From assembly GCA_949317995.1 (NCBI GenBank), contig OX439040.1, forward strand, positions 77,101,972 to 77,165,971: a stretch of DNA of 64,000 nucleotides, written 5' to 3'. Shown here in pieces: positions 1,096 to 52,957 of the stretch. Made by a program: the position numbers and the translations under genes. The stretch's first letter is position 1. Each line of letters starts with the position of its first letter. The stretch comes from Acholoe squamosa (taxonomy: Eukaryota > Annelida > Polychaeta > Phyllodocida > Polynoidae). The notes beneath the pieces were generated by a model. That model made no database searches. It had not been told where the DNA came from and saw nothing but the letters and a program-made list of their open reading frames with translations.

Positions 1096-3085
1096 TTTAA
1101 ACCTTTAAGGGTGGCTAATGGATTCATGTATTATGCCCATTGACCTCCTTGGCGTATTGCTAATTTTTATAATCACAAAATATCTAGTCAATTTTTTATA
1201 AATCATAGAAAGAAATTGGTGACTCACTAGTTTTTGTTTAGAAAAGATGATCCCACCAAATTTTGGAGCACTCTAAAAAAATATTTCCCAACAAAACCAG
1301 CTGGTCGTAATAGGCAGATTCCACAAAAATACTTTTACAAGTAAAATAAGTGAAAAACATGTCAAACCTGTACATAGCATACATGGTTGGAAGCGTATAT
1401 AATTCCCAAATTGATTTCCTTCCATTTTGTAACATTGTGTTTTCTATGGGATGAAAATGGAACAAAAATGTTCTTTTTTTGCTTCTTTTGCTTTGAGCAG
1501 CATTATTGGATAGAAATGTGTTATAGATTTTTCTTCTATTAATTTTAGATCAATTTTGTAGTGATTTCGGAGGGCACTGTATTTACTTCTTTTTGTATTC
1601 CAATTAAGCTCTACAGAGCTCTTCAAATTGCATAGTTATTAAAAATCCGTTATTTTCCCCTGTTTTCACCCATTTCACCCTAAAAATCCCATTTTTTATT
1701 ACAACATTCATATCTCATCTCATCTCATTACCTCCCCCCACCCCTGAGTTGTTTAAAGTTGTGCTAGAATTTAGGTTACTGAATGGCTTAATATGAACAC
1801 TATCAACTGGAGGTCGTCATTCCTATATATTGTCTCTGTATATGTAAATTGGTACAACTACATGCCATTTAATGGGACCTAGCTTAAGAACCTTAATGCA
1901 AGGTTGCTAGGTGCGGGACAATTTCTTAGTTCTTCTAGACCCAATTAAACACTTAAACACCGGGTCTGCTTTTTTTTTTTTTTTTAAAAATGTGAATATA
2001 GCAGACCTGGTAGGTACATTGACAGGGCTACATCCAGGCATCCCTCTGACAAAATGCAGGTCCTACAGAATGACATACTGAGACCGCGTGAAGGAATCCG
2101 AGATCATCGGGAAGTGAGAGTGGCAGATCTACATGCAACTATGTATGACCATATACAACTAGCAGACAATGTAATTGTAACGGGGAGAGATCTGCATGGG
2201 AACAGAAAGATTCAACCAAAATTGCCGAGATCTCGAAGGAGAATCTTTGATAAGAGTCCTCTGATGCGTGGCAAACAACTCTGGTCGACATTGGATACAA
2301 ATGTAGAACACTCACAAACAAAAGATGTGTTCTACAGACAACTATGATGATACCTAGCACATGATTATGATATTGGAATTACCACAGGTGGTTTATCTCT
2401 GGGATAAAGGAGACTGGAGGATGCTTTTCTTCCAGTTTGGACTAAGTATTATAAGGCATACGGCTGTGCATGCACCCATGGGGACACACACTGAAATAAG
2501 AACATATAATGGTTTTATTATTTTTTATACATTTCATAAAGCTTAAATGTAACTGGCCTTATTGAAGCAACTCACATATACCTTTGAAATATTTATGGCC
2601 AATGAACAAAAAAAAAACAACTCTGAAAGAAACAGTCCTAATGGGTCCATAGATATGATGAACTATAGTAGTCCTATAGTGCTCACTATATTACTATGCT
2701 AACATACGTTTGCTAAGAGCCAGCCTGCAGCGTTTAAAGGGTCTGTCGAGGCCATAGAAGGGAGAAGTAGCAGCTGTAACAGCACATCTTTTTTATATGG
2801 CTACTGATCAAAACGATGACACTAGACTTGCTCAAGATTGTAATATAAGTGAATCAAATTAAAACTGAACTAACATTCTAAACGGGAAAGTTTAAAGGAC
2901 CTTTAGTGAACCTAGGCAGCCTGGAGAAGTACTGCAGGAGAGGGGCCAGAGCTTATATTAGGGACTGCACACAGTCTGCTATGATGCTACATGGGGACGA
3001 TGGGGAGGGAAACATAATAACCCATAGGATATTAGCTTAGCATAGTGAGAGATGAATATAGGGCCGTGTTCTATTACCTATTCCT
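1096..3085. other. AT-rich non-coding stretch
   Basis: Holds a run of T at about 1971-1985. Open frames are short. The longest (2054-2347, plus, 97 codons) has no recognisable domain and no relative in the window, so no gene is called. Confidence 0.5.
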
Positions 3086-3087
3086 GG

Positions 3088-3260
3088 CATTATAGATTGG
3101 GTAGGGTAAGAGACATGTAAATGACATGTCTGGGGGCTGAAGGTCTATTTAGGATGTAAGCCATACAGGGAGATGGAGAGACATTAGAGGCTCAAGGTGC
3201 TGGGTCAGACCAATCACTACCTCTACACTGGCAGTCAGCACCTGGGGACCATGCAGACAT
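3088..3260 (+). repeat. dispersed repeat J, copy 1
   Basis: Shares a core (GGTGCTGGGTCAGAC) and upstream text with 6605-6960, 22225-22430 and, more weakly, 63760-63960. The upstream part contains a 'tagggtaagagacat' stretch matching the 6.6-kb copy. No coding capacity and no clear ends were seen. Confidence 0.5.
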
Positions 3261-3991
3261 TCACTGTACCTGGGTCTGAGGGAAGCAGTCCCCCAAGGAT
3301 CATCAATATGACCAATTGTAGTGCTGCAGCGCAGTCTTGTGCAATACTTTTACCTTTTAGAATTCATACCAGATTTATCTTACTTCTAGAAGCTCTTCTT
3401 CACAGGGAGTTATAATGTGATAAAGTTTACGGATTGGTTTGACAACTGAAATGAAAAGAATGTAAAAGATGTACTAAAGGCCTTCTGATTACCAGGTACC
3501 CGGACAGACATGAAAGTCATTAAATAAATGACTAGTTTTTTTTTCTAGGCTAGGCAATATTCCATAAGATTGAGCTTTGAATCTTCCTCAACTATAGTTG
3601 AGCAGAAACAGAAAACATTTTTCCATGTAGAGTAGTAATTCTGGAACAGCTCTATTAATAAAATGGCCCCGGCACATTGCTGAGATTTCTCTATGCTTCC
3701 AGCCATAATTATCTTGCTCAGAGTCATCATGTAAGCCCTGTCAGTCATTGGTATCCCCCCTGAGGTGAGAAAAGACGAGATTTATCAAGGAAGTTTGAAA
3801 CGTTCTCTTAAATACCAGCTACCTCAAGCAGAATTCAGAGGCAGGGCGGTTGCATGTTCTGCTATGTGACTCCATTGGGCATTCATAATGAGCGTCAGTC
3901 TAATTAGCAGTTGGCATGTGTAGTCAGCCCGTCTAATTGCCACTGACACTTAACGATACCATACTAAGCATAAGGTCTTGGCCCTGCCCAG

Positions 3992-4020
3992 GGTGGCATT
4001 TCTCAAGATGATACGACCTC
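3992..4020. mobile_element. family D terminal remnant between two CAGs
   Basis: Twenty-nine bases matching the family D end (GGCATTTCTCAAGATG, then TACGACCTC) sit between CAG at 3989-3991 and CAG at 4021-4023. This looks like an element collapsed to little more than its inverted repeat. Confidence 0.5.
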
Positions 4021-4070
4021 CAGGGGGTGCAGCTCTGGATTCTACATAACACATAACACCTTTTTGGTCT

Positions 4071-4279
4071 TTATTTCACGTTGGGAACAGTGGAATACAA
4101 ACGCCCCATATAGATTTAACCTTGCAGCCCCGTATCTCACACCCCTATGAGATAATCCATCCTCGTATCTCACGGCCAATAAAACCACCCAAAATGATCA
4201 TAAAACATGCAAATGTTTATCTTTTTTGTGCAATTTCAAAAGAGTTTTGAACATTTCTGATTCAGATTACATGAAATAA
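4071..4279. mobile_element. MITE-like repeat K, copy 1
   Basis: Bounded by inverted TTATTTCACGT (4071-4081) and ACATGAAATAA (4269-4279), a one-mismatch inverted repeat. Inside the left end is a degenerate 'GAATA..AACGCCCCAT' block that also occurs near 4381, 4720 and 5955. Target duplications were not resolved. Confidence 0.4.
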
Positions 4280-4639
4280 ATACAAATGTTCACAAGTAGT
4301 GGGCCTGACTGAGGGTCCGCCTCATGAGATAACCCTCAGCTAGACCAACTAGTTGTGAACCTTTTCTATTTATGTCAAGGTGAATATCGATGCCCCATTG
4401 ACAATGCACTAGCCTCCCGTATTGAACCCCTGCGTTAAATAACCAGCGCCAAATCCACACGACCACGTCATAGGTCCATTGCGCATGCGCAGCCCTTTTG
4501 AAACGAAAACATCCAAGATGGCGGCGGTCAGCATTTCGCGATGACAACGGGTAAATAAGAGTTAATTTTGAAGGATATTGAAGAAATATCTATTGATTTT
4601 CCACTCAAACACCTTGACATAAATGTAAAGATGAACTCT

Positions 4640-4690
4640 GATCAGTTTGAGCTTCCTGCATCTTCCTGCAACGGTCAGCTCAAACTGATC
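4640..4690. repeat. inverted repeat, 14-bp perfect arms
   Basis: GATCAGTTTGAGCT (4640-4653) pairs with AGCTCAAACTGATC (4677-4690). The match continues imperfectly outward to about 4622 and 4710, giving roughly 33-bp imperfect arms. It abuts repeat K copy 2 and may be part of that element. Confidence 0.7.
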
Positions 4691-4709
4691 ATCGTTCACC
4701 TTTACCATT

Positions 4710-4858
4710 TTATTTCATGTGAATAACAACGGCCCCATAATTGAAGGGCTGTACGCCACCCCCTCCCAGTGGTGTAATATATCTCGGTCTACACTGCTGG
4801 TCACGTGACTTATTTCCATGTTCATTTCATTGAATTTAATCACTAAAACATGAAATAA
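4710..4858. mobile_element. MITE-like repeat K, copy 2
   Basis: Exact 11-bp inverted ends TTATTTCATGT (4710-4720) and ACATGAAATAA (4848-4858), with the same GAATAACAACGGCCCCAT-type block as copy 1. Non-coding. Confidence 0.45.
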
Positions 4859-4941
4859 ATATGGAACTAATTTTCCTCAATCTACCCCTCAGGGAGGTGC
4901 CTCTCTATTGGGCTTCGCTGTCTGGGGAGAGACCATTCCTG

Positions 4942-5175
4942 TGGGGTGTTTCAGAAGCCGGACATGATAATGAACATTAAATATCTGTTTCTAAAACTGT
5001 TAGATTCTAAACTGCAACCATTATCATCTCTCACCAGTCATATAGTTATAGACACAGTAAGGTAATGGTAATACTTTAGAAACACATGCAGTTATAAGCC
5101 TACAATCACTATTAAAACTGCTATCATATCTCCTTATGACCGGTTGTAAACATTACCTGCTTCTGAAACACCCCA
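4942..5175 (+). mobile_element. MITE family A, complete, CTG duplication
   Basis: A 234-bp element with the same TGGGGTGTTTCAGAAGC inverted ends as 130-370 and a nearly identical body. CTG is duplicated at 4939-4941 and 5176-5178. With the CAG at the other copy, this shows that the middle base of the duplicated triplet is free (A or T). Confidence 0.87.
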
Positions 5176-5647
5176 CTGGGAGGGGGGGTAGACCATAAAG
5201 TACACCATAGTTGTTTAGTTTAAAAATTAAATCAAAAGAAAAGGAAAAAAATAAACAATAACACAGAAAGTTCACAATAAACAACCTTGACCAAGGGCTG
5301 TAGATAGAATGGTTGCATGTTCCATGCTGTAGTTGCATTAGATTAGATCCAGACATGAATTTGCATTTGGTGCAGGTTTTGGGATCTTGCCAAATTGCCA
5401 CAGTTGTACCACCCTACCTGGCTATTCAATACTTTTGGTCAATATATTTCATTCCAAGTTAAATGATATTGAATAGTACCACTTAAAGCCTCTGAAAAAA
5501 TACATATTATGTCATCATTCATGTTGTAGATGAATTTAAGGGGGTGCTTGCTTCTATGATTTGAAATTGTGCTGTCACAGAATAATGTGAAACAAGAAAA
5601 ATGTGACAAGGGCCACGGATAGGAGTTGCCAATCTGCGGCCGACGTG

Positions 5648-5688
5648 TGACGTCACAGCCGACATATGACGTCACAAATTGCGTCACA
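5648..5688 (+). promoter_or_regulatory. cluster of CRE-like sites (two full TGACGTCA)
   Basis: Full TGACGTCA palindromes occur at 5648-5655 and 5667-5674, 19 bp apart, followed by a half site (GCGTCA) near 5681 and TGATGTCA near 5699. This is the core bound by CREB/ATF bZIP factors. No gene start is evident nearby, so function is inference. Confidence 0.45.
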
Positions 5689-5728
5689 AGGTGACCGTGA
5701 TGTCACTGAAAAACCGAAAAACATAATG

Positions 5729-5776
5729 GAGTTGCTACGGTCGCTGCGCTCCCGGCCGCTACGCAGCAAGCAACTC
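5729..5776. repeat. GC-rich imperfect hairpin
   Basis: GAGTTGCT (5729-5736) pairs with AGCAACTC (5769-5776), and an inner GCTGCG pairs with CGCAGC. This CpG-rich island immediately follows the CRE-like cluster. Confidence 0.55.
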
Positions 5777-5779
5777 AAA

Positions 5780-6600
5780 AAAACCTTGTGAGATTGAAGG
5801 AAGGCAGATATAAGGAAACTATAATCTAAGCTATATATGTCATGAGTCAACCAAAGTCAACGTCTCTATTATTTCATAGCACTGTGGCACCATTAGTCTT
5901 TTGTGCTCAGAACTATTCTGGGCATCTAGTGGTGCCTTCTATTTCATTTTATGGGAATAATGACGGCCCATATGTATAACATTGAACTGCCGACCACCAC
6001 TCCCACAGTAACATAAGTACACTCCCGGTGCAGGTGCAGGTGAACAGGTCATAGGCAATGATAAGGTTAACAGTGTAATTCATTTTTATCTTTTTAAACC
6101 TTTTAATGCATAAAGTATCAATAAATACAGAACTACACTAGCTGGGATACATTTTCATGGATATGTCCCCTTCAGATTGATGAAAATGTATCATTCTAGT
6201 TATGTATTGCACCAATCTACATCCTTGATGTCTTATAGTGTGCTCCTTTACATCAGAAAGGTGCCTTTTAGTACAGGTAGAGTCTGTTATTGGTTGCCCC
6301 CAGCTGGCCAGCTGCCTCTATGAAAAGCAATCTAAGATATCCTGCGCTCCTGGGCTGTTTTCTTTCTTCTATGAAGCTACAATGGAGGGAGGGGGGGGAG
6401 TGAAACTAGAGAAACCATTTGGAACGTTCAACACCGGTATTTAGGTAGTTTTGAGGACCACCCCACCCCTTTGTCACTGTTTTTGTATGGAACATATAGA
6501 GGAACCCATAGACCCCGCCACACCCTAAGCAGTGACGTAATTCTTGAACGTTCCCATAGAATGTTAGGTCCTGTCATAGAAACAAATATATTGCGTGTGT
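5780..6600. other. no gene seen
   Basis: Contains one more degenerate repeat K block near 5941-5975. Nothing coding is recognised. Confidence 0.45.
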
Positions 6601-6604
6601 CACA

Positions 6605-6960
6605 TCTCTGACACCTTATATATAGGGTAGGGCGAGAGGCATCTAAAATAAATGTATGCGGGTGAAGGCATATATAGGATGACAGTCATGCAGGGAGATG
6701 GTGTAAAATATATCAGGAGTCAATTTCTTAACAGCCTCCGACTACACCCTTCAAGTCGTACCCAAATCCCCATAGGAATAGCATTGGCATTTTGAAGTCG
6801 TAGGGCTGTGAGTGGTCGTAGTACCATAAGAACTGACCTCCTGCGGCTCAAGGTGCTGGGTCAGACCCGTTACTACTTCTAGGCACTGATTGGGCAGTAA
6901 CACTGTATGGAAGTAGCTTAGGGCAGGGTTTAGTGGTTTAAAGGTGGTGCATAGAATCAT
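6605..6960 (+). repeat. dispersed repeat J, copy 2, split by a small MITE
   Basis: Text on either side of 6717-6840 (tagggtagggcgagaggcat upstream, GGTGCTGGGTCAGAC downstream) matches the copy at 3088-3260, which has no insertion at that point. Confidence 0.5.
6717..6840. mobile_element. 124-bp MITE related to family D
   Basis: Imperfect inverted ends (GAGTCAATTTCTTAA and TAAGAACTGACCTC) resemble family D ends, and GTCGTA blocks recur inside. The flanks are CAG (6714-6716) and CTG (6841-6843), so the duplication is of CWG form but not identical. It interrupts repeat J. Confidence 0.55.
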
Positions 6961-7870
6961 AGGATCACCATATGGCGTACCAAGCCCTAATTAGATACTC
7001 AGCAGTGCTATATTCTTGCATCATAACGTCTAATGGTGTGATGCATTCCCTGCCACTGTTCGGGCCAAACATATAAAAAAGGGCACGTCTGCAAACAAAT
7101 GTGAAAAGTAGCGAGTAATATTGTGTGTAGACATCGGAGACCTTGTTATATCTCGAAATGATGAGGAAATATATAGCTGGCTTCTACTCAAAAATACCTC
7201 ATGTTTAGTTAATTTCTGAAACTGTCCCCAGTCTATATCTATTGGAGTAAGCATGCCTCTGCGCACAACACTATATTGTATTTGCCCACTGAAATAAAAA
7301 AGAAATATGAAGAATCAAGATACCTCCTTATCACCAGCTATACCTAGACCAGACAGAATCACAGTGGCTGGTCCAATGGTGCCATGAATCACTGTGCCAC
7401 TACACGACTATCGTGACAGATGTACATATATGTCACGATATCCCACCTGAAAGACTGACATGTTTGATTTTTTCAAACGATTTGGTACCAATGTAGGTAC
7501 CGACAGCTGTACTAGGGAGGTACCCCACCCCCACCAACACACTCACAGACACCCACAGCCCCATTCTGATTGGTACCGATGGTCGTTCTGGCTTAATATT
7601 GCCTAGTGGAGAAAGACCCTCAGGGCTAGCTAGACCAAACATGAGGTGCCTGTCTGTGGTGGGTCAAATTGCCACACTTGTAGCAACCTGCCATGCTGCT
7701 GAGGAGCCCTTGATATGCATGGGACAAGATTCAACACACTTCAGGAGGTGATGTTTATGACTTGGTCTGGACGCTTTGCCACAATGGCTTGCGATTGCAC
7801 GTTTCTGAAGACATTATACATATCAGTATCTTTTGACTGTATGTTTTGAAGCCATACTTCCTTGTCTACA

Positions 7871-8696
7871 GGCATTTCTCTAGATGGTACGACTACACTC
7901 CCTTCAAATCGTACTGGGATCCCTCACCTTAATGCCATAACAGCCATGTACCTGGTGGTCACTAATTATTACACTGGTACGACTGCCCTACCCCAGCGAT
8001 CTTAGCGTAGGCACATATCATAAGACCTAGCCAGTCTACCCTATCTAATGCAGTGGTTACAGGCCAGTCAGGCACAGCAAGTCCTGAGATCCCTTCACTA
8101 TTCCTTTTCCAGCTGTAAGATCACTGCAATCTTAGTGAAATAATTACATTATGATTTCACCTGAATGCAAGAGCACTAACAGGGAACATTCCTACTCCCA
8201 AGAGTGAATGTCCCTGCTGTAGACATATAGAGGGGAGAGAGGACATTTGCTGAGAGTCCTTGAGGGCTCTTCAGGCTACTCAGGCATGAAGTGTACTTGA
8301 ATACTGTACAAGGTCAACTGCACCCTATACTCTATAAGTAGCTCATATGGGGGGGGGGAACGCTTGTGTAACTCTTGTGAGAAGGAGTGTTTCCACTGCT
8401 ATTTTTTCACTATGGGCCTCTTGCCCCTGTGCACAGTGTGTTCTACTTGGAATGGTGTAGGAGGGCTGAGGCTAAGATCACTGCGATCTTAGTGCTGGCT
8501 GTGAAAAGGCAAGAAAGTCTAATCTTAAGATCGCTTAATTGGATAAGGCAGAATAATTCCTAAGATCACTGAGGTAGCGATCCCAGGACCTTTTGAATTA
8601 ACCTGCAGAGCAGTCATAGTGCATAACTTACAATCACCCACTCTAATTCTGAGGGTTTCAAATCGTAGTAGTCATTCCATCTTGAGAAATGCCTTC
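7871..8696. mobile_element. family D element carrying a nested family B element
   Basis: The left end (GGCATTTCTCTAGATGGTAC, with the outermost bases lost) and right end (CCATCTTGAGAAATGCCTTC, followed by CAG at 8697-8699) are the inverted ends of family D. Near both ends lies TTCAAATCGTA. The centre is occupied by a minus-oriented family B copy. Confidence 0.65.
7990..8602 (-). mobile_element. family B element, minus orientation, nested
   Basis: Matches the reverse complement of the complete copies at 54712-55456 and 59390-60122, including the paired 'GATCACTGCGATCTTAGTG' palindrome. The outer left end (about 30 bp of terminal repeat) is missing. The right end reads CCTTTTGAATTAAC, close to the family terminal repeat. 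Confidence 0.7.
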
Positions 8697-8897: not shown

Positions 8898-9195
8898 TTT
8901 TTATTTGTCTTTGGATGACAGGTTTACTTTTGGTAGAATAAATGGAATGTATGTTTTTGCAAACCTATAAGAAGTAACTGACTTCCAGGATAATTTGAAG
9001 GAGTGTTTTAGGAGAACATTCTGAAATAGTCTACTTAGAAGGGAGGCATGCATATAGAGAGAGACTGTAATAAGCAATTTTCTGTGTCAACGGCAGTCAG
9101 TGTCCCAGAAACGTAGTACCATAAGTAAATTATACTGCATACTATAATCTTCAGCATCTAGTGGCACTCTTCATCATAAGCCGTTTTATATCACA

Positions 9196-9317
9196 ATATT
9201 GCCAGGACTTTTCAGGGCATTAACTGGGGGTTAATGACGTTTAATGCAGGAGAGGAATATTGCCAGGACTTTTCAGGGCATTAACTGGAGGTTAATGACG
9301 TTTAATGCAGGAGAGGA
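9196..9317 (+). repeat. tandem duplication, 61-bp unit, 2 copies
   Basis: GCCAGGACTTTTCAGGGCAT recurs at 9201 and 9262 with the rest of the unit. It lies just ahead of the DIRS-type gag start and could be part of its 5' terminal repeat, but no matching copy was found after the recombinase gene. Confidence 0.75.
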
Positions 9318-9461
9318 CTGTTGTGGTTAGGCCCTCCAGGGGGGCATGGGTGTATGAGACACTGTCACCATGCAGGAGCAGCTCAGTCTGCACTGAGCAC
9401 ACAAAGGAATAGCTGTCTAAGCTGGAGGAAGGGGGGGGGGCTAACCCTACAAGGATCTACA

Positions 9462-10319
9462 ATGTCAGATCAGGAAGAAGCAGTACCATTTGATATGATG
9501 GCATGGGCCAACAAATGGGGACTAAAGAGGAAGACAACAGGTGTGTTGAATAAGGAGGACTTTAACACAGAGGTAGTGCTTATTAATGCCACTGTGTCAG
9601 ACATTGCAGGTCTGGAGGTGACTGTAGGACAGGCTAGAGCCTTAAAGAAGCTGGGCCTGGTTGCACTAGGGAACAAGGCCTTTATGGAGGCTCCAAGGGA
9701 TCAAAAGGAGGAAGGGCACATAACTACACCTGAGGCAGAGGTCAGCATGGAGACATCTACAGGTGACCGAGCTCAGGATATGAGGGAGACCTCCACACAA
9801 CAAGACAGTAATCAGCATATACTGGAGGCTAATGAAATCTATGGGATATTAGGAAGGAGTGACATAATATGTCTATGTGAAACCTGGCTGAAGCCTGCCT
9901 CACCAGATGGCCTGATTAATAGAGAGGAAAGGTTACTGTATAGGAATGATAGAATTGGTAAAAATTGTGGAGGAGTTGGCCTAAGTGTGAAGGCTGGCCT
10001 AGGGCAGTATATTAGAGTTGTAAATGACTTTACCATACAGACCATCAATTATGAAAGTATTGCTATTATGTTAAACCTTCCTGGTGAAAAGGATTTATTG
10101 ATTGTCTCTATCTATAGAATCCCAAATACAAATGTACCAAATTTTATTAATTTCTTACGATCCATCACTGGTTACGAATATAACAACAATCATGGTAGGC
10201 ATGAGACTTGGATCTTAGGTGATATTAATCTCAATATGTATGATGAAAATGATGCAGGGTGTGAAAATTTCAGAAATGTGTGCAAGGATATTGGATGGAG
10301 ATTTTTTAGAATCATGTGA
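9462..10319 (+). pseudogene. chimeric frame: DIRS-type gag N-terminus joined to LINE endonuclease
   Basis: One open frame (ATG at 9462; the frame opens upstream at 9321) encodes two unrelated parts. Codons 1 to about 125 (SDQEEAVPFDMMAWANKWG onward) form a small helical SAM-like segment followed by an acidic linker, as seen at the start of DIRS-type gag proteins. From about 9835 on it is an apurinic-type endonuclease of a CR1/Jockey-group LINE, with SDIICLCETWL, a GGVGLSV block and WILGDINLNM. The endonuclease lacks its C-terminal SDH region: after GCENFRNVCKDIGW the frame ends, and the downstream RT linker follows in another frame. The fusion is most simply a LINE insertion into gag that happens to stay in frame. 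It is not expected to make an active nuclease. Confidence 0.75.
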
Positions 10320-12345
10320 CTGGAAACCCTATTATAATATTACTGATGATCCTGATATATTATGGGATATGTTATTGACTCCGTTAATTAAGTATTTGTA
10401 CACTTTTCACCCTCATGTTGAACGATACATTAAAAAAAGTAGGAGATCATGGATTGATGATGAAGTTATGGATTTAGTATTTGAAGGAGAAGGATGGTTA
10501 CGTCTCTATAGTGCCAATAAAAGTGCTCAGGAAAAGCAAGCTATAAAGGATTGTCAAATAGAAATTAGAAAGAAAACTAAAGCAAATCAAATTGGTGGTG
10601 TCATGCAAGAGTTGCAAGTAAGTTATGGTAATCCCAAAAAATTCTGGAAACACATAAATAACTTGTTTAAAAATTCGAATTCTATTGTGTATCCAGACAT
10701 GAGACATCATATAACTGGTGCTGATGTAACTTCTGATGATGTTTGTGAATATGTAAATGACTATTTTTGTAATATTGGTAAGGATCTGCATATTGCTGCT
10801 GTTGGAACTGATCAATATCTTGTGGATAATAATCTAGATATAGATGAACTATTGGCAAATGAAAACTTCTTAGATCAGAATATTAAGGTTAATAAGTGGG
10901 ATGTCCATTTTGCTCTAAAAGAAATTGATAAAAATAAGTCATCAGGCATAGACGGAATAAGGGGAGATATACTACATTGTGCATTATTGTTGTTGATAAA
11001 TCAATTCACTCATCTGATACAAATTAGTTTGGACAGGGTTATTTTTTCAAAATGTTTGGCAATGGCAGTTGTAAGACCATTACCTAAGGATGGGGATTTG
11101 GCAATGGTAAAAAATTGGCGACCCATATCAATACTACCAATGCCGTCTAAAGTCATTAAGAAAATTATGTATTATTACTTATGTGAAAGTATGAAGAAAA
11201 ATGGTACTTTTTGTGAAAACCAAAATGGTTACAAAAAAGGGACAGGTACTGGTGATGCCACTTTTGACTTTGTTAATGAGCTTTATGAATGTAGAAACAA
11301 TGGTCTGATAACAGGGGCTCTATTTATAGACTTCACTAAAGCATTCGACAGTGTATTACATTCAAAATTGCTAATTAAATTCAGTAAACTTGGTTTGAGT
11401 AAATCTAATTTTCTATGGTTTAAAAGTTACCTGTTGTTTGTCCTATATATTGATGGTGTTGTTAAGGTCTTAAAAAAATGCAAGATTAAACTGTATGCTG
11501 ATGACATTGTGATTTATAGTTCTAACAAAGATGTAGACTTGGTTAATGAGAATTTGAATGAAGATGTAATTAACTTTAAGCGTTGGGTTATCGAAAACAG
11601 ACTAACAGTAAATCCAACTAAAACAAAATTTATGTGGTTTTGTAGTGCTCATAAATTAAAAAGATGTCCGGATTCTACTATAGACTTCAATGGCAGCACT
11701 GTGCAAACTGTCACCTTCTTTCCATATCTAGGTGTACATATTAACAGTAAACTTAGTTTTGATAAACAGATTAAAATCATTAAAAGAAATGTATGCAATA
11801 AACTATTTAGGTTTGCTAAGTTAAGAAAGTTTTTAACACAAGAGCAAAGTGTAAAGATATACTGTTGTACAATCAGACCAATTATAGAATATTGTTCATT
11901 TATAAGTACTAGTTGTAATGAGGATGGTCTTGCGGCATTACAACGACTGCAAAATAGAGCTCTTAGAGTTTGTCTGAAATGCAATATTAGACGGTATAGT
12001 GTGAAGGAGTTGCATGAAATTTGTAAGGTTCCAGTGTTAGAGAAAAGATTTGACATGCTATTATTATGCTTAATGTATAAGAAATCAAAGACTGTGTTAA
12101 ATAGACCACAATCTTATAATACAAGGTCTCAAAAGAAGATTGTTTTTGAACTACCTAGGGTTATTACTAGACACTATAAAAGATCGCTATGGTACAGAAT
12201 AATTGATAATGAGAAGCAGGTGTGGAAACTGCGCTGCTTCATATTCATATTCATACTCACATTCATATCCTTTTTCATGTTTACATCCATATTGATATTG
12301 CTGATGTTCCCATATGCATATAACAGCATATACTACCAACTCTAA
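10219..12345 (+). CDS. LINE reverse transcriptase, open but missing a palm motif
   Basis: A 708-codon frame; the first ATG is arbitrary, and recognisable LINE sequence begins near residue 31. Residues 31-230 are the EN-RT linker. The RT follows: KNWRPISILP (298-307), the catalytic FIDFTKAFDSV (369-379), and YADD (426-429). Between SYL (405) and FVLYIDG (about 407) the roughly 30-35 residues that normally carry GVPQGS..GPLLF are absent, with the frame kept. The thumb and C-terminal 'LFRFAKLR...RALRVCLK' region, typical of CR1/Jockey-group proteins, continues to about residue 655. The last 50 residues are hydrophobic and come from an ATTCAT-type simple repeat near 12238-12275. Polymerase activity is very unlikely without the lost motif. 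The protein resembles the minus-strand fragment at 16891-18310 closely enough to be the same clade. Confidence 0.82.
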   Translation: MILISICMMKMMQGVKISEMCARILDGDFLESCDWKPYYNITDDPDILWDMLLTPLIKYLYTFHPHVERYIKKSRRSWIDDEVMDLVFEGEGWLRLYSANKSAQEKQAIKDCQIEIRKKTKANQIGGVMQELQVSYGNPKKFWKHINNLFKNSNSIVYPDMRHHITGADVTSDDVCEYVNDYFCNIGKDLHIAAVGTDQYLVDNNLDIDELLANENFLDQNIKVNKWDVHFALKEIDKNKSSGIDGIRGDILHCALLLLINQFTHLIQISLDRVIFSKCLAMAVVRPLPKDGDLAMVKNWRPISILPMPSKVIKKIMYYYLCESMKKNGTFCENQNGYKKGTGTGDATFDFVNELYECRNNGLITGALFIDFTKAFDSVLHSKLLIKFSKLGLSKSNFLWFKSYLLFVLYIDGVVKVLKKCKIKLYADDIVIYSSNKDVDLVNENLNEDVINFKRWVIENRLTVNPTKTKFMWFCSAHKLKRCPDSTIDFNGSTVQTVTFFPYLGVHINSKLSFDKQIKIIKRNVCNKLFRFAKLRKFLTQEQSVKIYCCTIRPIIEYCSFISTSCNEDGLAALQRLQNRALRVCLKCNIRRYSVKELHEICKVPVLEKRFDMLLLCLMYKKSKTVLNRPQSYNTRSQKKIVFELPRVITRHYKRSLWYRIIDNEKQVWKLRCFIFIFILTFISFFMFTSILILLMFPYAYNSIYYQL
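12238..12275 (+). repeat. ATTCAT-type simple repeat
   Basis: A degenerate run of TTCATA/TTCATT units that gives the LINE frame its hydrophobic tail. Confidence 0.6.
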
Positions 12346-14313: not shown

Positions 14314-15304
14314 TTGGTAGCGGTATACCAGTCGGAGGCCTTTGCCTCTAGCACAGTTAAGGCTTATGGAGTGCACATCCTTTTGTGCAGTAATGGGCGT
14401 GCGTCCAGTGCCAGCACAGCCCAGTCAGTTGTGCAGATATGTGGCACATCTTACGCGGAGACTAAAATATTCATCTATAAAACAGTATTTATCAGTGATA
14501 GGTCACATGCATCAGGAGCGAGGTTGGCCTAGCCCTTTGGATAGTAATTACCCTCTTAAGTTAACCCTTCGGGGTGTGCGGAGGGTGCTGGGTGATGCGG
14601 TTATACGGAAGCAGCCAGTGACGCCTGAGATGTTATTTGCACTGCTACAGGGTTTGGATGTTACGACCCCTAAAGGTTCAGCAGTGTGGGCGAGTGCACT
14701 GCTCATGTTCTTTGGGCTATTACGGAGATCAAATGTCCTAGGTGTTGGGGGGACCCCATTCAACCCCTCTCACCATCTCAGGAGGCAGGACTTGGGGCTG
14801 ACTCCACAGGGACTACAGGTGACAATACGCTGGTCTAAGACTGACCAGGTTCCTGCTAGGACACGGGTGATACCCTACCCGCGGATTAAGGGCTACCCTC
14901 TGTGTCCTACTCAGGCTGTGTTCAATGCTATGCGTCTAACTAAGCAGGCACCACTTGTGGAGGGGGACAAGGCAGCTCCACCCTTAACACCAGAATTTTT
15001 CTCAAAAACAGTGCTTCAGATTTTTAAGCAAGCGGGCCATGATAGAAGGGATTATGGTTCTCACAGCTTCCGCCGTGGAGGCGCCAGTTTTCTGTGGTGT
15101 GTGACTGGAGTGGACCCTGAAGCAATTAAGGCCCTGGGGGATTGGACTTTCAGTGCCTGGAAGCTGTATGCTGTCAGTGACCCGCCTGCTTTGGCGCGTA
15201 CAACTGCTGCGATGGCTGCTGCCATGACTACTTTCTACCTCCATTTGGGAGTTTGGGGGAAGCGAGCAATATATATAATTAGCTTTGTACTGTACTCATT
15301 ATAA
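14314..15304 (+). pseudogene. DIRS-type tyrosine recombinase, near full length
   Basis: The N-terminal core-binding part starts in one frame near 14320 (SEAFASSTVKAYG) and shifts near 14375 into the long frame 14342-15304 (320 codons). The catalytic set is visible in that frame: Arg in FFGLLRRSN (R128), Lys in IRWSKTDQ (K166), HSFRR (H241, R244), Trp in LGDW (W268) and the nucleophile Tyr in WKLYAV (Y276). In living relatives this enzyme inserts the circular cDNA. Apart from the N-terminal frameshift the catalytic domain looks intact. It is the best preserved part of the element, and downstream of it no terminal repeat was recognised. Confidence 0.85.
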
Positions 15305-35348: not shown

Positions 35349-35350
<2 letters not shown>

Positions 35351-37253
35351 GGGTCATTCCAGGTTTTACTGGTCAGGTGGCTTCTTGGGCATATAATAGC
35401 AAGGGAAACACTTCTACACCACCAATAATATTTTTATATGGTTTGGGTGGGTCTTGGGGCATAATTTATCTTCTATATGCATTTAATTATAAATTTTCAC
35501 GTGGGGTACGTTAATGATAGAGCCTATCTAACCTGGTTAGGGAATATTATCAGTGTTCTTATTATATGCAATTAAGAGGTACCCTTATTTTTTCATGTAC
35601 TCCGGGAATTACCCTTGCCAGGCACATATGAGTGATTTTCAATGCACACCGCGATCATTAACGTACCCTGGGCTTTTGCCTCTAAATAGAATAAAATAAA
35701 CCAAATACATACAATTCCCACAGTCTATGGCCACTTTTAGAGTAAATACATCATGCCTGAACAAGAATTGTGGCCAAATACAGTCTGGTTTGGCTGTATG
35801 GGGGGTCCCTTTGTAAGCGGGGTACGTTAATGATCGGCGGCGGGAAAAACAGCACGGGAAGAGAAAAACGACTTCCTGTTGCCCGGCGGAAGTGGCCTGC
35901 ATCCGGGTACTGTGGTTCAGCTCAGAGGAGGTCACAGCTTGTTTATAGCTACCCCTAGGCAGAGTTCTACTGCAAAAGGAACCCCAAATTCGCAAAAAAT
36001 GTAAGGAAATTCCACGAAATTCCATGAAATTGCGATGAATATTGTTGGAGATGTCTGTGGGGGGCCGTAGATCGCTTTTTGTATAACGAAACGATGTATT
36101 TTGGATGCTAGGGGGTAAAATGTGTTGCCGGGTGAGGCCTGCGATGCAGCCTGGGGCCCCAGGGTGAAGCTTTGGCCACCCCGGGCTGTATTTTCAAAAT
36201 TGGGGTACGTTAATGATTTTTCGCTCAGCAAGCAGAATTTGGCCTCTCCTGGCCGAGATGATGTACCCTTGGGTCTAAATTGTTGATAATCCTTAAGAAT
36301 AGGACCCCCTACGTATGTAAGATGCATTTTGGGCCATGTTTGGGTTTTTTGAGATGACCCCCCCACCCCAATTTGGGCTTGAATGGCCAAATTTCTGCCT
36401 CGTCGTGAACCTTTAGGCCCCCTCACGGCCAAAATTGTGCTTATCCCATGTTTTTTGGGGTTATATTCCTTCTCCTACCTCTATTTGGGCATTTTGGTGT
36501 GTTAATCCTCCGGTGGGATCGAAAGCATAGCCATAGTGGCCAAATTTAGGGAGATAGTGCTCGTCGGTCATTAACGTACCCCGGTGGCAAGATGCCTGCC
36601 TACTGGTCGCCATCTTGGATTCAGGGGAATGTTTTATGGTGGGTATGTTAGACATGTCCCCCCTCTGTTGTGTTGACCAGGTAAGCTCACCCTTGCACAA
36701 AGCCCCCACTGCTGAGTGGTTATAAACCTTTGCGATCATTAACATACCCCCCCTTCTTATTCTGTATTTTCCACACAAGTGGCACTTCCAGTGCACATAG
36801 CTCCATCATATTTCACCATGACATGCCCCTATGGTACCTCTCACACAAGTGCCATTAGTTAGATACTGAATACTTTTTTCCAAAGAATTTTTGGGGTGGC
36901 TATATTTCAGCATTTTTCTTATATTTTGTCAGTATAAATTTCCATATTAGCAATTAATCAGCTGATTGAACTTCCGGGGTTACTGTACATCATTTGTAAG
37001 CATATAGGAACATGATGAATATTTTTTTCCTATTTATTTATGTATATCTTATCAGTATTCAAACACTAAAAAATTCCTTATTATCTTAAAATCTACTGAT
37101 TTCCTCACTATGAATTACCAGATCAGCATAAAAACATCTGATAAAATCTTTGGCGTTGTTGTACATCCTTTGTCAGCATATAGGAACTTGTTTAATCACT
37201 ATTTACCTTTTTATTTAATGTATTTCTTCTCATTCTTTGATAGGTTAAAGACC

Positions 37254-38390
37254 GGGGTACGTTAATGACGGTACGAGGATTACGAGATGAACAAAGTTAC
37301 AATTATATTTTTTCAACCTGTGACCTAATATGGTTTTTGTATCATTTCTATTCAATAGTAGTGATGTTTCGTTTATTATAAAAGAGTATCTGAGGTATTT
37401 AGAGGCATATTACTTTACGCCATGGCATGCACGCGTTACGAGAAGTGTAGAAATTTTGTGATTTTTAATTTCCAAAGTGATATTAAACACCCAAGATGGG
37501 CCTTATCAATGGTTAAATGACTCTATATATGTATTATGATCTCATTTACCCTCAGGAAAGAGTATTTAAGGTATATAAGTGTATATTTTTGTACTGTGCT
37601 GCAAGCGAAGGCCGCGAGAAGTGTTGAAAAAGTTGTGATTTTAATTTTCAAAGTGATATTGAACACCCAAGATGGGCCTTATGTATGTTTAAATGACTCT
37701 AGATAGGTAGTACAACCTCTTTACGGGCCTCACTAGCCCACTTAAAAGGGTCTATTTCTTTTCTTTCCTATCCCCTCGGGATGTGTGTGGTGCACATATG
37801 CGCGGGCACCGACATATTCCTCTGTGAATTTGTGTAATATAGTTCTCGCCATGAATATGACCTTAGCTGTCGAAATGGCGTTAAACATCTATTACTCACT
37901 CACTCACTCACAACCTCTTTACTCATTATGTGTGTGATGCCAATGGTATATGATAGTGTATAGGTGAGCTGTGGCCATTCTTTGATAGGTTAGCAAATGG
38001 GGTACGTTAATGACCGGTAGGAGGATTTTGAGATGGTTAAAGTTCTATTGTTATAGTGCCAGCCTATCATCTTGTATGGTGTTTCTATTATTTGTATTCA
38101 ATCATAGACATGTTTGGCTTATGAGAAAATACTATTTGGTGTATATAAAGATGCATTTTAGCACCCCATGGCATGGATGCTTTGCGAGAAGTGTAGAAAT
38201 TTTGTGATTTTTAATTTTCAAAGTGATATTAAACACCCAAGATGGGCCTTATGCAGGGTTAAATGACTCTAGATAGGTAGTACAACCTCTCTTGTGATGG
38301 TGTATGTGATAACAATGGCATATGATGATGTATAGATGAGCTGTGGCCATTCTTTGAGAGGTTAACAAATAGGGTACGTTAATGATAATA
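37254..38390 (+). repeat. tandem units (about 372 and 176 bp) inside the 3.6-kb element
   Basis: The block GAGAAGTGTAGAAATTTTGT onward through CACCCAAGATGGGCCTTA occurs at 37440, 37616 and 38186. The block CATTCTTTGATAGGTTA with the 15-bp motif occurs before 37254, 37999 and (slightly changed) 38371. Allowing for the SINE, the spacings are 176 and about 372 bp. Confidence 0.85.
37725..37909 (+). mobile_element. SINE with 13-bp target duplication
   Basis: ACAACCTCTTTAC occurs at 37712-37724 and 37910-37922. Between them are 185 bp ending in ATGGCGTTAAACATCTATTA and a short TCAC repeat tail. A GGCGTTAAA 3' end with a simple-repeat tail is common in invertebrate SINEs. A Pol III box A/B pair was not clearly recognised, so the head class is open. 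The sister units at 37440 and 38186 lack the insertion. Confidence 0.75.
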
Positions 38391-38937
38391 TGTGTAATAT
38401 AATGGCCTCTACGCAAGCACCAACTATGAAGTATAGGTATGATATATCAGGCCAATTCTAATTATTATGTACAGTAGGTCTACTAGAGACAATGGACAGT
38501 TAATATAGTCATTGTATGAAGGATTTTGAATGAGCTAGGCTAAAGTTAAAAAATGGTAAAATAAATTCACAAATTTTCACATTTTCCAATTTATCCACCT
38601 ATGCATAACTTCAAGAGTTTTCAGGCCTCACTTTAGCTTTTTGGTATACATAAAGTCATGTATTGTACCAGTCTGGCCACAATATTTGGTGTTTCCAGGC
38701 CTCTTATTAGTGGTGTTATTCATGTTTGATTGATTACGATCATTAACGTACCCCCTTTTTAGAAGGTTTTACGGCATCTGTGATAAAAACTGACCCCCTA
38801 GGAGTTGGATCCTTAAATGAAACTTTTTAATAAGCCAAGATATAGGGCTATCAATAAAATATAATGTTATTAAGAAATACTGAGTTTGTAGATTCTTGAT
38901 CCAAGCCCCCCCAGACCAGTAAAACTTGGAATGACCC

Positions 38938-38969
<32 letters not shown>

Positions 38970-40989: not shown

Positions 40990-42018
40990 TCATATAGAAG
41001 ATTGTGTAGAATTGACTGTCGACTGACTAGATCTATCCCTGTTTGTTCTCTTAAACAACTTCAGGACGTCCCGTCTGTAGGATGGCAGAACACACAGGTA
41101 CACCATAGGGTTGGAACATACATTTACTAATGAGATCAAGATGTTGATCTTCCACAGCATGGAATTCGGTGAATATTCTACGAGTCCTTGATTACCGAGT
41201 AGTACATTCAGTAAAGTAGGACCCATAGTGAGAGTGAATATTGTTGTTATTATAGCGGCTGATTTTGTCAGTTGTTTTGTGGCAGCATCAATCACTGTAG
41301 ATTGGCCTAAATTCCCAGCATCTTGGTTCCTTCTCCTTAGACAAACCACAATCTTTCCATACAGAATGATAATCAAAGCAGTTGGGGCAAAATAATCTGA
41401 GCCACATAAGAATACATTATAATACCACAGAAATTCTAACAATGATTTATCGGAAATATTTTTGAATTCACACTGTTCATTATTAAACTCTACATTTAAG
41501 ATAGCAGGAATCCTACTTACAAAGTTCCATATGTAGATAACAATGATATATCTTATCACCCTGCACTTTGTCATGTTCATGTAGACGAGTGGTTTGCAAA
41601 CAGCCAGAAACCTGTCAAATGCCATCAAAACAAGACTCCATAGAGAAAGGATGTAGCACATCCAATGGAGGATATTAGAGTGCCAAACATAACACACTAT
41701 GACATCAAATACATGTACTCCCGAACTCCACAATGGTGACTGTTCTGTGACGATAGCTAGGGAGATGCATACCAATAAGTCTAGCATGGCTTGATGCTTC
41801 ATTAAAAACAAAACCATTGCATTTAGGGAAGCCGATTGGTGTAGAGCCACAAAAGTAAAAAAGTTCATCATAGCCCCAGTAATGGCCAGAATAAGAAGAA
41901 TCTTGTTGAAAACTATGACCCACACTTGGAAAACCTCACCATAGCTGGCACTAGTTGTATTGGTGATAGTGTGTGTCTGAAACAGCCCGTCGCCAGTCGT
42001 TAGTCCGTCTAATCCCAT
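40990..42018 (-). CDS. rhodopsin-class G protein-coupled receptor, intact, intronless
   Basis: A 342-residue seven-transmembrane receptor of the plasma membrane. The ligand is unknown. The extracellular N-terminus (1-31) has an N-glycosylation sequon at N20 (NTT). Helices: TM1 about 32-58 with N52; TM2 about 67-90 with D80; TM3 about 105-132 opening with C109 and ending in DRF (135-137, the E/DRY position); TM4 about 155-173 with W164; C183 in the second extracellular loop, which should pair with C109; TM5 about 206-226; TM6 about 252-275, lacking the usual CWxP; TM7 about 288-311 with NPMVY (303-307). A basic helix 8, YRRDVLKLFKR, follows. The loop between TM5 and TM6 is short and basic. Length and single exon fit a family of lineage-expanded class A receptors. 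It is closely related to 51926-52957 and to the broken copies beside that gene. A role in chemical sensing or peptide signalling is inference. No promoter elements are assigned. Confidence 0.93.
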   Translation of the reverse strand: MGLDGLTTGDGLFQTHTITNTTSASYGEVFQVWVIVFNKILLILAITGAMMNFFTFVALHQSASLNAMVLFLMKHQAMLDLLVCISLAIVTEQSPLWSSGVHVFDVIVCYVWHSNILHWMCYILSLWSLVLMAFDRFLAVCKPLVYMNMTKCRVIRYIIVIYIWNFVSRIPAILNVEFNNEQCEFKNISDKSLLEFLWYYNVFLCGSDYFAPTALIIILYGKIVVCLRRRNQDAGNLGQSTVIDAATKQLTKSAAIITTIFTLTMGPTLLNVLLGNQGLVEYSPNSMLWKINILISLVNVCSNPMVYLCVLPSYRRDVLKLFKRTNRDRSSQSTVNSTQSSI

Positions 42019-51925: not shown

Positions 51926-52957
51926 ATGGAGCTCACTGAATCAACCACTGACACTAACGTTTTGTTTGTGACAAGCGCAATGGATAATGCCACCACTATG
52001 GTTAATGATGATATGCTACCAGCTTGGACCACCTTCATCAACAAGGTTCTTCTTGCCCTAGCCATTACTGGAGTTCTAATGAACTTTTCTACTTTTATGG
52101 CTCTACACAAGAGCGCATCCCTTAATACTATAGTTTCATTTTTGATGAAACATCAAGCCATGCTTGACATGTTCGTCTGCATCTTTCAAGCTATCACAAT
52201 AGAGCAGTCACCACTGTGGAATTCTGGAATCTATTTAATTGATGTTGTAGTGTGCTATGTTTGGCACTCTAGTATGCTCCACTGGATGTTGTACATGCTT
52301 TCTCTATGGAGTCTTGTCTTGATGGCCTTCGATAGGTTTCTGGCTGTTTGTAAACCACTGGTCTATATGAATATGACAAGACATGGGATGATAAAGTACA
52401 TGATTGGTATCTACATATGGAACATTGTAATTAGGATTCCTGCTTTCCTCTATATGCATTTCAATGATGGACAGTGTGACTTCAATATTTTTTCTAATCA
52501 ATTGATGGTAGAATTAATGCGGTTTTATCCCCTATTTTTTACTCTCTCTGAATATATCGCACCTTGTGCCTTCATTATAAGTCTCTATTCTAAGATCATG
52601 CTTTCTCTGAGGAGGAGGAACCAAAATGGAGGGATGTTAGGTCGTTCTGCAGTAATTGATGCTGCCACAAAACAACTGACAAAATCAGCAGCTATAACAT
52701 TGACAATTTTCATTCTCACTCTGGGTGCAACTTCAGTGGTCATACTGCTCGTGAATCTAACACGTATAGACTATTCACCTTACTCCTATGCAAGAAAGAG
52801 TGTTGAGTTCCTAATGTTGCTGAACTCATGCGCTAACCCTGTGGTGTACCTGTGTGTTCTGCCATCCTACAGACGGGACATACTTAAATTGTTTCAAAGA
52901 AGGAGGGAGAGTAACTATATTCTGGAGGCTACACAAACCTCATTCATATTAGCTTGA
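51926..52957 (+). CDS. rhodopsin-class G protein-coupled receptor, intact, intronless
   Basis: A 343-residue seven-transmembrane receptor, ligand unknown. The N-terminus has a glycosylation sequon at N21 (NAT). TM1 about 33-60 with N53; TM2 about 68-91 with D81; TM3 opening at C110 and ending DRF (136-138); TM4 with W165; loop cysteine C184, the expected partner of C110; TM5 about 207-227; basic SLRRRNQ loop; TM6 about 253-276 without CWxP; TM7 about 290-312 with NPVVY (304-308); helix 8 YRRDILKLFQRRR. Much of the sequence is shared word for word with 40990-42018, for example WSLVLMAFDRFLAVCKPLVY and IDAATKQLTKSAA, although that gene lies 10 kb away on the other strand. The ATG at 51926 is chosen because the related genes all begin about 30 residues before TM1. 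Flanked by broken copies on both sides, so this is a tandem cluster. Confidence 0.93.
   Translation: MELTESTTDTNVLFVTSAMDNATTMVNDDMLPAWTTFINKVLLALAITGVLMNFSTFMALHKSASLNTIVSFLMKHQAMLDMFVCIFQAITIEQSPLWNSGIYLIDVVVCYVWHSSMLHWMLYMLSLWSLVLMAFDRFLAVCKPLVYMNMTRHGMIKYMIGIYIWNIVIRIPAFLYMHFNDGQCDFNIFSNQLMVELMRFYPLFFTLSEYIAPCAFIISLYSKIMLSLRRRNQNGGMLGRSAVIDAATKQLTKSAAITLTIFILTLGATSVVILLVNLTRIDYSPYSYARKSVEFLMLLNSCANPVVYLCVLPSYRRDILKLFQRRRESNYILEATQTSFILA

Follow-up and report, generated by a model that had tools for sequence, protein, structure and literature searches.

A 15-bp word carried many times by a TIR transposon family of Acholoe squamosa and different at the homologous sites of a sister family

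The locus studied here raises the question of why a TIR element that contains no gene carries one 15-bp word ten times, and what might read this word. The window, namely the whole 64-kb stretch of Acholoe squamosa DNA that was analysed, contains 12 matches to GGGGTACGTTAATGA at up to 3 mismatches, and 10 of them lie inside the element at 35349-38939 with at most 1 mismatch each, while the two outside have 3 mismatches each. The shuffled window gave a mean of 1.40 and a maximum of 5 matches at the same threshold.

The window element and family A

The preliminary description had reported ten copies of the word in a gene-less TIR element, and both observations were confirmed. Seven copies are exact and the rest have 1 mismatch, with six on the plus strand and four on the minus strand. 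TIRs are found at both ends with TA repeats outside them, the left TA run being interrupted by TTT beside the TIR. Aligned to E1, a long copy of the same family, the window copy lacks both the ORF and the upstream exons of long copies; in reversed order it corresponds to E1 1-1030, 1018-1511, 8916-10755 and 10777-10865. The TIR DNA transposon family from which the window element descends by deletion, with loss of its genes, is termed family A in this study. Its features are as follows.

35349..38939, no strand: family A TIR element, non-autonomous deletion derivative, in reversed order relative to E1
35349..35380, plus: TIR corresponding to the E1 right end (the 32 bp length is taken from E1)
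35503..35517, plus: word, exact
35655..35669, minus: word, 1 mismatch
35819..35833, plus: word, exact
36202..36216, plus: word, exact
36568..36582, minus: word, exact
36736..36750, minus: word, 1 mismatch (C to T at CpG)
37254..37268, plus: word, exact, inside a 373-bp-type unit
37725..37909, no strand: insertion (about 185 bp) nested in the element, flanked by a 13-bp target duplication at 37712-37724 and 37910-37922
37999..38013, plus: word, exact, inside a 373-bp-type unit
38371..38385, plus: word, 1 mismatch, inside a 373-bp-type unit
38740..38754, minus: word, exact, 186 bp from the element end
38908..38939, minus: TIR corresponding to the E1 left end

The start-to-start spacings of the words in the element range from 152 to 745 bp, so that the lower limit of 80 bp given earlier is too small. 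Between 37254 and 37999 the spacing is 745 bp, which is accounted for by the 547 bp found in E1 and 198 bp of nested insertion, 13-bp target duplication included. This insertion has what we take to be the look of a SINE, and a related stretch at 78% identity was found in another locus (L017). The word-bearing units of about 372 bp that had been noticed are indeed present, one running from 37999 to 38371.

Other features were observed elsewhere in the window. A 708-aa ORF at 10219-12345 (plus strand) contains a reverse transcriptase domain (RVT_1, E 4.9e-24) and is presumably a non-LTR retrotransposon remnant. The 320-aa ORF at 14342-15304 (plus strand), which includes SHSFRRGGAS, had no Pfam match at E 0.001; we take it to resemble a tyrosine recombinase. 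Two related single-exon rhodopsin-type receptors are located at 40990-42018 (minus strand; 7tm_1, E 3.7e-20) and 51926-52957 (plus strand; 7tm_1, E 1.3e-18).

A genome-wide count of the 15-mer, as had been proposed, placed the exact word far above its reversed control, with 1194 + 1194 occurrences on the two strands against 3 + 2 in the 1.48 Gb and 63 contigs searched. Among the matches listed, the places with the exact word were mostly clustered. Seventeen stretches fetched from such places represented 13 loci, and at least one TIR was found at all 13 and in the window, although 4 of the 13 have one element end only in the stretch fetched. Copies lacking the motif had been named as the case that would speak against the earlier reading; all 13 loci combine the word with a TIR, but they were picked by the word, so that they place the word in TIR elements and word-less copies could not appear among them.

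The exact TIR with its TATAT prefix was counted 176 + 173 times genome-wide (control 0), and the 33 elements paired by eye from the 100 TIR places listed were 2.58 to 12.0 kb long, with no shorter form there. The termini of family A are (T)ATGGGTCATTCC. At the loci, which were chosen by the word and not by the TA prefix, 24 of 26 element ends adjoin TA runs of at least 8 bp, the two exceptions being a 6-bp TA run in L020 and the TTT break in the window. The four long copies (E1-E4) measure 9266-11285 bp and carry 13-18 words each. Six short copies, among them the window copy, were read at both ends; they are internally deleted derivatives and keep 9-11 words. The word was also considered as a recombination site, and this was rejected: the six short-copy junctions lie 18-909 bp from the nearest E1 word, and none falls within a word.

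Concerning coding capacity, E1 contains an ORF at 2599-5163 on its minus strand, with 830 codons from ATG and 855 from stop to stop. The ORF had no Pfam match up to E 10, and its best match among PDB sequences reached only E 0.17; DFAENW, SDSPSSQYRN and EAGHGKGPCDG may be read as a DDE/D-type catalytic series, by which the ORF would be a transposase. The codon pattern of GHGKGPCDG was counted 345 + 355 times genome-wide in many codon versions (control 0), and these approximately 700 copies indicate that related lineages are numerous in the genome. The sequences sharing this motif form a large transposase group, and the single ORF tested from it had no Pfam match. When 54 of 1769 candidates were scored for relatives of the ORF, 57 rows matched and 50 of these were near full length at 98-100% identity, 44 of the 50 having no stop. 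This high identity, together with the stop-free ORFs, indicates that family A is young; it is a young DNA transposon located in TA repeats.

The word within E1 and in sister family B

E1 is 10,865 bp long and has TIRs of 32 bp that are identical at 31 of 32 positions. Of its 17 words, 10 lie in 373-bp-type units, one word per unit, which form two inverted arrays on either side of the ORF (E1 554-2530 and 5584-7998; L009/L010), the number of units differing among copies; the other 7 lie outside the repeated unit. The right part of E1 holds six words. When nine representative E1 sites were compared, flanks with more than 26 of 60 bases alike were found only between the two sites in 373-bp-type units, so that the word stands in eight unrelated contexts in E1. 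No word was found in the E1 ORF and upstream exons at up to 2 mismatches.

The comparison of the motif with its flanks, another check that had been proposed, gave a mixed outcome. In ten 373-bp units of E1, 1 of the 15 word columns is variable, compared with 142 of 258 around it (Fisher p 0.0002), and 12 other 15-column windows of these units are as constant as the word. For the young A copies, eight sites taken together (two left-end and six right-end) gave 11/1379 differences within the word compared with 184/16363 in its surroundings, and an excess of conservation over the flanks is not clear. This result is expected if source elements, rather than every dead copy, are under selection, and by itself it gives no support for function. 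An overall contrast of 24/6914 against 3033/82114 was dropped as proof of conservation since it mixes unit paralogues. The 13 spacings from one layout gave an R of 0.856 near 171 bp, a value reached by 0 of 2000 jittered sets, and this periodicity should be taken as a hint only because the spacings were chosen post hoc.

A second element, starting at 2525 in L024 and ending in L056, is bounded by related TIRs and likewise embedded in TA repeats. Identity to E1 is 89% over its left 175 bp and 70% over a 1.2-kb alignment of its right part. It represents a sister family, family B, and has RTGAGGCNWGAGTGAA in place of the word of family A at all six right-hand homologous sites; word columns 2, 4, 5, 6, 10 and 12 are altered alike at 6 of 6 sites. 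Reading through one B copy, we counted 40 mismatches to A in 84 positions within the word and 388 in 1457 outside it. The spacings of the six sites are 168, 366, 384, 164 and 173 in A and 168, 375, 373, 164 and 181 in B. The decisive finding is that A and B have homologous DNA and one layout, whereas the word is different.

The word of family B was counted 363 + 403 = 766 times genome-wide, against 0 + 0 for the control. A long B element on contig C2 carries it at 70401750 (plus), 70402118 (minus) and 70402490 (minus), with more from 70415749 onward, and the catalytic motif at 70403842 (minus); the spacings of 368 and 372 compare with 369 and 372 in A. Among 40 of 2316 candidates scored, long relatives of the L024 element showed 88-93% identity to it, and from this identity family B looks older than family A.

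A candidate reader of the word

Three G+C-rich exons, A-C, with GT-AG borders in phase, lie at 7.2-8.9 kb of E1 on its minus strand, and the upstream gene would be spliced through them. In exon A, an ATG immediately follows the acceptor, and a C run varies in length (10, 8, 9 and 11 in E1-E4); E2 and E4 have this exon in frame and free of stops, in E1 and E3 it is out of frame, and E3 has further deletions in exons A and C. All four long copies have an open exon B. Exon A was also found upstream of the transposase ORF, on the same strand and 2.6-4.3 kb away, in 49 of the 50 near-full-length ORF copies. Against Pfam, the upstream protein gave only a sub-threshold match to HIND (15.5 against a cut-off of 25). 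Neither a contiguous fusion of exon C with the transposase nor a spliced copy of the upstream exons was found among the 150 of 518 candidates scored. A contiguous exon A-B match at C8:82972636-82972917 was rejected as a spliced copy, as its TGA and TAA fit the first codons of the intron.

Family B shows the same order at the expected place, from the last part of exon A through the intron into the beginning of exon B, with a stop in exon A of the single, short upstream stretch that was read. A and B share 19 of 45 residues (42%) in the basic domain of exon A and 26 of 53 at the start of exon B; the alignment of the domain is real, with a score of 109.5 where the highest of 1000 shuffles reached 61.5. 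At the DNA level, the exon A part matches at 65/142 = 0.458, which is the shuffle level (0.425-0.513 in eight shuffles), while the intron reaches 112/177 = 0.633 and exon B 115/173 = 0.665. The transposase, compared over the start of the protein only (about 74 residues), is 83% identical to that of A in this B element; at C18, where the upstream exons are of the B type, the value is 88%. With the domain at 19/45, the transposase start at 83-88% and six word columns altered, the basic domain is what changed most at the protein level, and the word is what changed in step at the DNA level.

Further, the B peptide matches a third group, in which 46 of 68 rows show 48-64% identity (150 of 183 candidates scored), and the domain of B is nearer to this group than to that of A. 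Over the range that was covered in full (C1 to C3 at 42.8 Mb), 6 of 8 rows of the third group are followed on the same strand by a catalytic motif 3.0-3.2 kb away.

These data suggest that the word is probably a cis site of the transposon, read by a predicted sequence-specific DNA-binding protein that the autonomous element would encode and that would have changed together with it. Judged by divergence, the likeliest reader would be the basic-domain protein of exons A-C, possibly fused to the transposase. This protein would bind 13-18 sites across the noncoding DNA of a long copy, and its binding would cause DNA with the word of its family to be mobilised, to be kept from silencing, or both. 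The short derivatives retain approximately 1 kb at the left and 2 kb at the right, with nine or more words, and so could stay substrates. When the domain of the reader changes, the words would change too, resulting in sister families with separate addresses. An exchange of the exon by recombination would look much like such a divergence of the domain.

The preliminary description had suggested protein-binding sites in several versions. Sites owned by the transposon are favoured by the eight unrelated contexts in E1, none of them coding, and by the concerted replacement in B. The versions with a host factor, a satellite seed or a replication platform fit less well, since the word is family-specific and 7 of the 17 E1 words lie outside the repeated unit.

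Transposases often bind repeated sites close to their ends, and the 830-aa ORF has an N-terminal part ahead of its putative catalytic region, so that the transposase itself could read the word while the upstream exons serve another purpose. We consider this unlikely: A and B-type loci agree at 83-88% over the start of the ORF, whereas the basic domain is at 42% and the word changed at six columns. It is quite improbable that the word is the site of a host factor, namely a transcription factor or a silencing protein, recruited by the element or harming it. The word is present in all family A copies and gene-less derivatives examined, at loci chosen by the word, and its TTAATGA presumably resembles homeodomain sites; however, a host factor would be expected to meet the same word in the sister family, yet B differs at the homologous sites. 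That the word is passive and functionless, spread by duplication of the 373-bp unit and gene conversion, agrees with the 10 of 17 E1 words in related units of two inverted arrays around the ORF and with the lack of clear extra conservation at eight sites of young copies, but is very improbable given the seven E1 words whose contexts share the word alone and the six scattered B sites that were altered alike while their flanks are still 73% alike.

Relation to known transposon systems

The reading of the word as a cis site with a protein of the element has close counterparts in plants. In the VANDAL transposons of Arabidopsis, the transposon-encoded VANC binds a short motif that has accumulated in the tandem repeats and other noncoding DNA of the family to which it belongs, and related VANC proteins have different motifs and different targets (PMC5735166, PMC10398659). 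VANDAL elements are plant MULEs with motifs of 8-9 bases, and the turnover of these motifs is attributed there to tandem repeat formation (PMC5735166, PMC10398659). In the two families compared here, too, noncoding DNA carries a motif that is specific to the family and not the same in its relative. Unlike in VANDAL, the word is 15-16 bases long and its changes lie at scattered sites that are not in tandem, and neither a MULE transposase nor a VANC-type protein was recognized, the ORF having no Pfam match and HIND being sub-threshold.

The CACTA/EnSpm elements, with TnpA and soybean Tgm as examples, combine a conserved transposase with a divergent DNA-binding protein in the account consulted (PMC2613891). 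In Tgm, a repeated motif in both orientations is needed in cis, and two subfamilies differ at 6 motif nucleotides; according to the same portion of this account, the motifs are packed close to the ends, over some hundreds of bases (159 and 732 bp in Tgmt*; PMC2613891). The word studied here also occurs in both orientations, and a second gene with a basic domain is predicted. It differs in extending over most of a 9-11 kb element, and in place of CACTA..TAGTG termini and a tnp2-type transposase, family A has the ends (T)ATGGGTCATTCC and an ORF without a Pfam match up to E 10. Family A belongs to neither CACTA nor VANDAL.

IS3EU elements are described, in the excerpts cited, as having TAYGG..CCRTA termini, TIRs over 30 bp and a 6-bp TSD, with transposases related to IS3/IS481 and integrase-like enzymes (PMC12730594, PMC10045372). 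The ends of family A fit with TATGGG, the first TA being inseparable from the TA flank, and the 32-bp TIRs of E1, with 31 identical positions, have the corresponding length. The TSD is unreadable within the TA repeats that adjoin 24 of the 26 ends, and an integrase-like transposase was not recognized, as judged at the Pfam level only (no match up to E 10). Insertions within TA microsatellites are shared with MuTAnT of Medicago, which has a Mutator-like plant transposase and for which a word of this kind is not mentioned in the part of the source cited (PMC4486113). No relatives were found in viral contigs or in phages. The word had 0 occurrences in the literature searched, where nothing closer than the systems cited above was found.

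A broader proposal can be made tentatively. Families A and B may belong to a DNA transposon superfamily, nameless in Pfam and present here in a non-plant genome, with a swappable address code, in which each family would have its own fast-changing basic domain and a 15-16-bp word placed across its noncoding DNA at multiples of approximately 170-185 bp. The protein might then hold the element open, nucleosome-phased or anti-silenced, as a counterpart of VANC.

Joint change of a transposon DNA-binding protein and its many sites has already been described for plant CACTA and VANDAL, as a proposal for TnpA and as a demonstrated case for VANC of Arabidopsis. In this genome, A and B are alignable sister families that show the joint change site by site, since six scattered sites shifted in step and their surroundings did not. 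With two proteins and two words, the A/B pair therefore makes a change of specificity that involves one protein and many sites directly testable.
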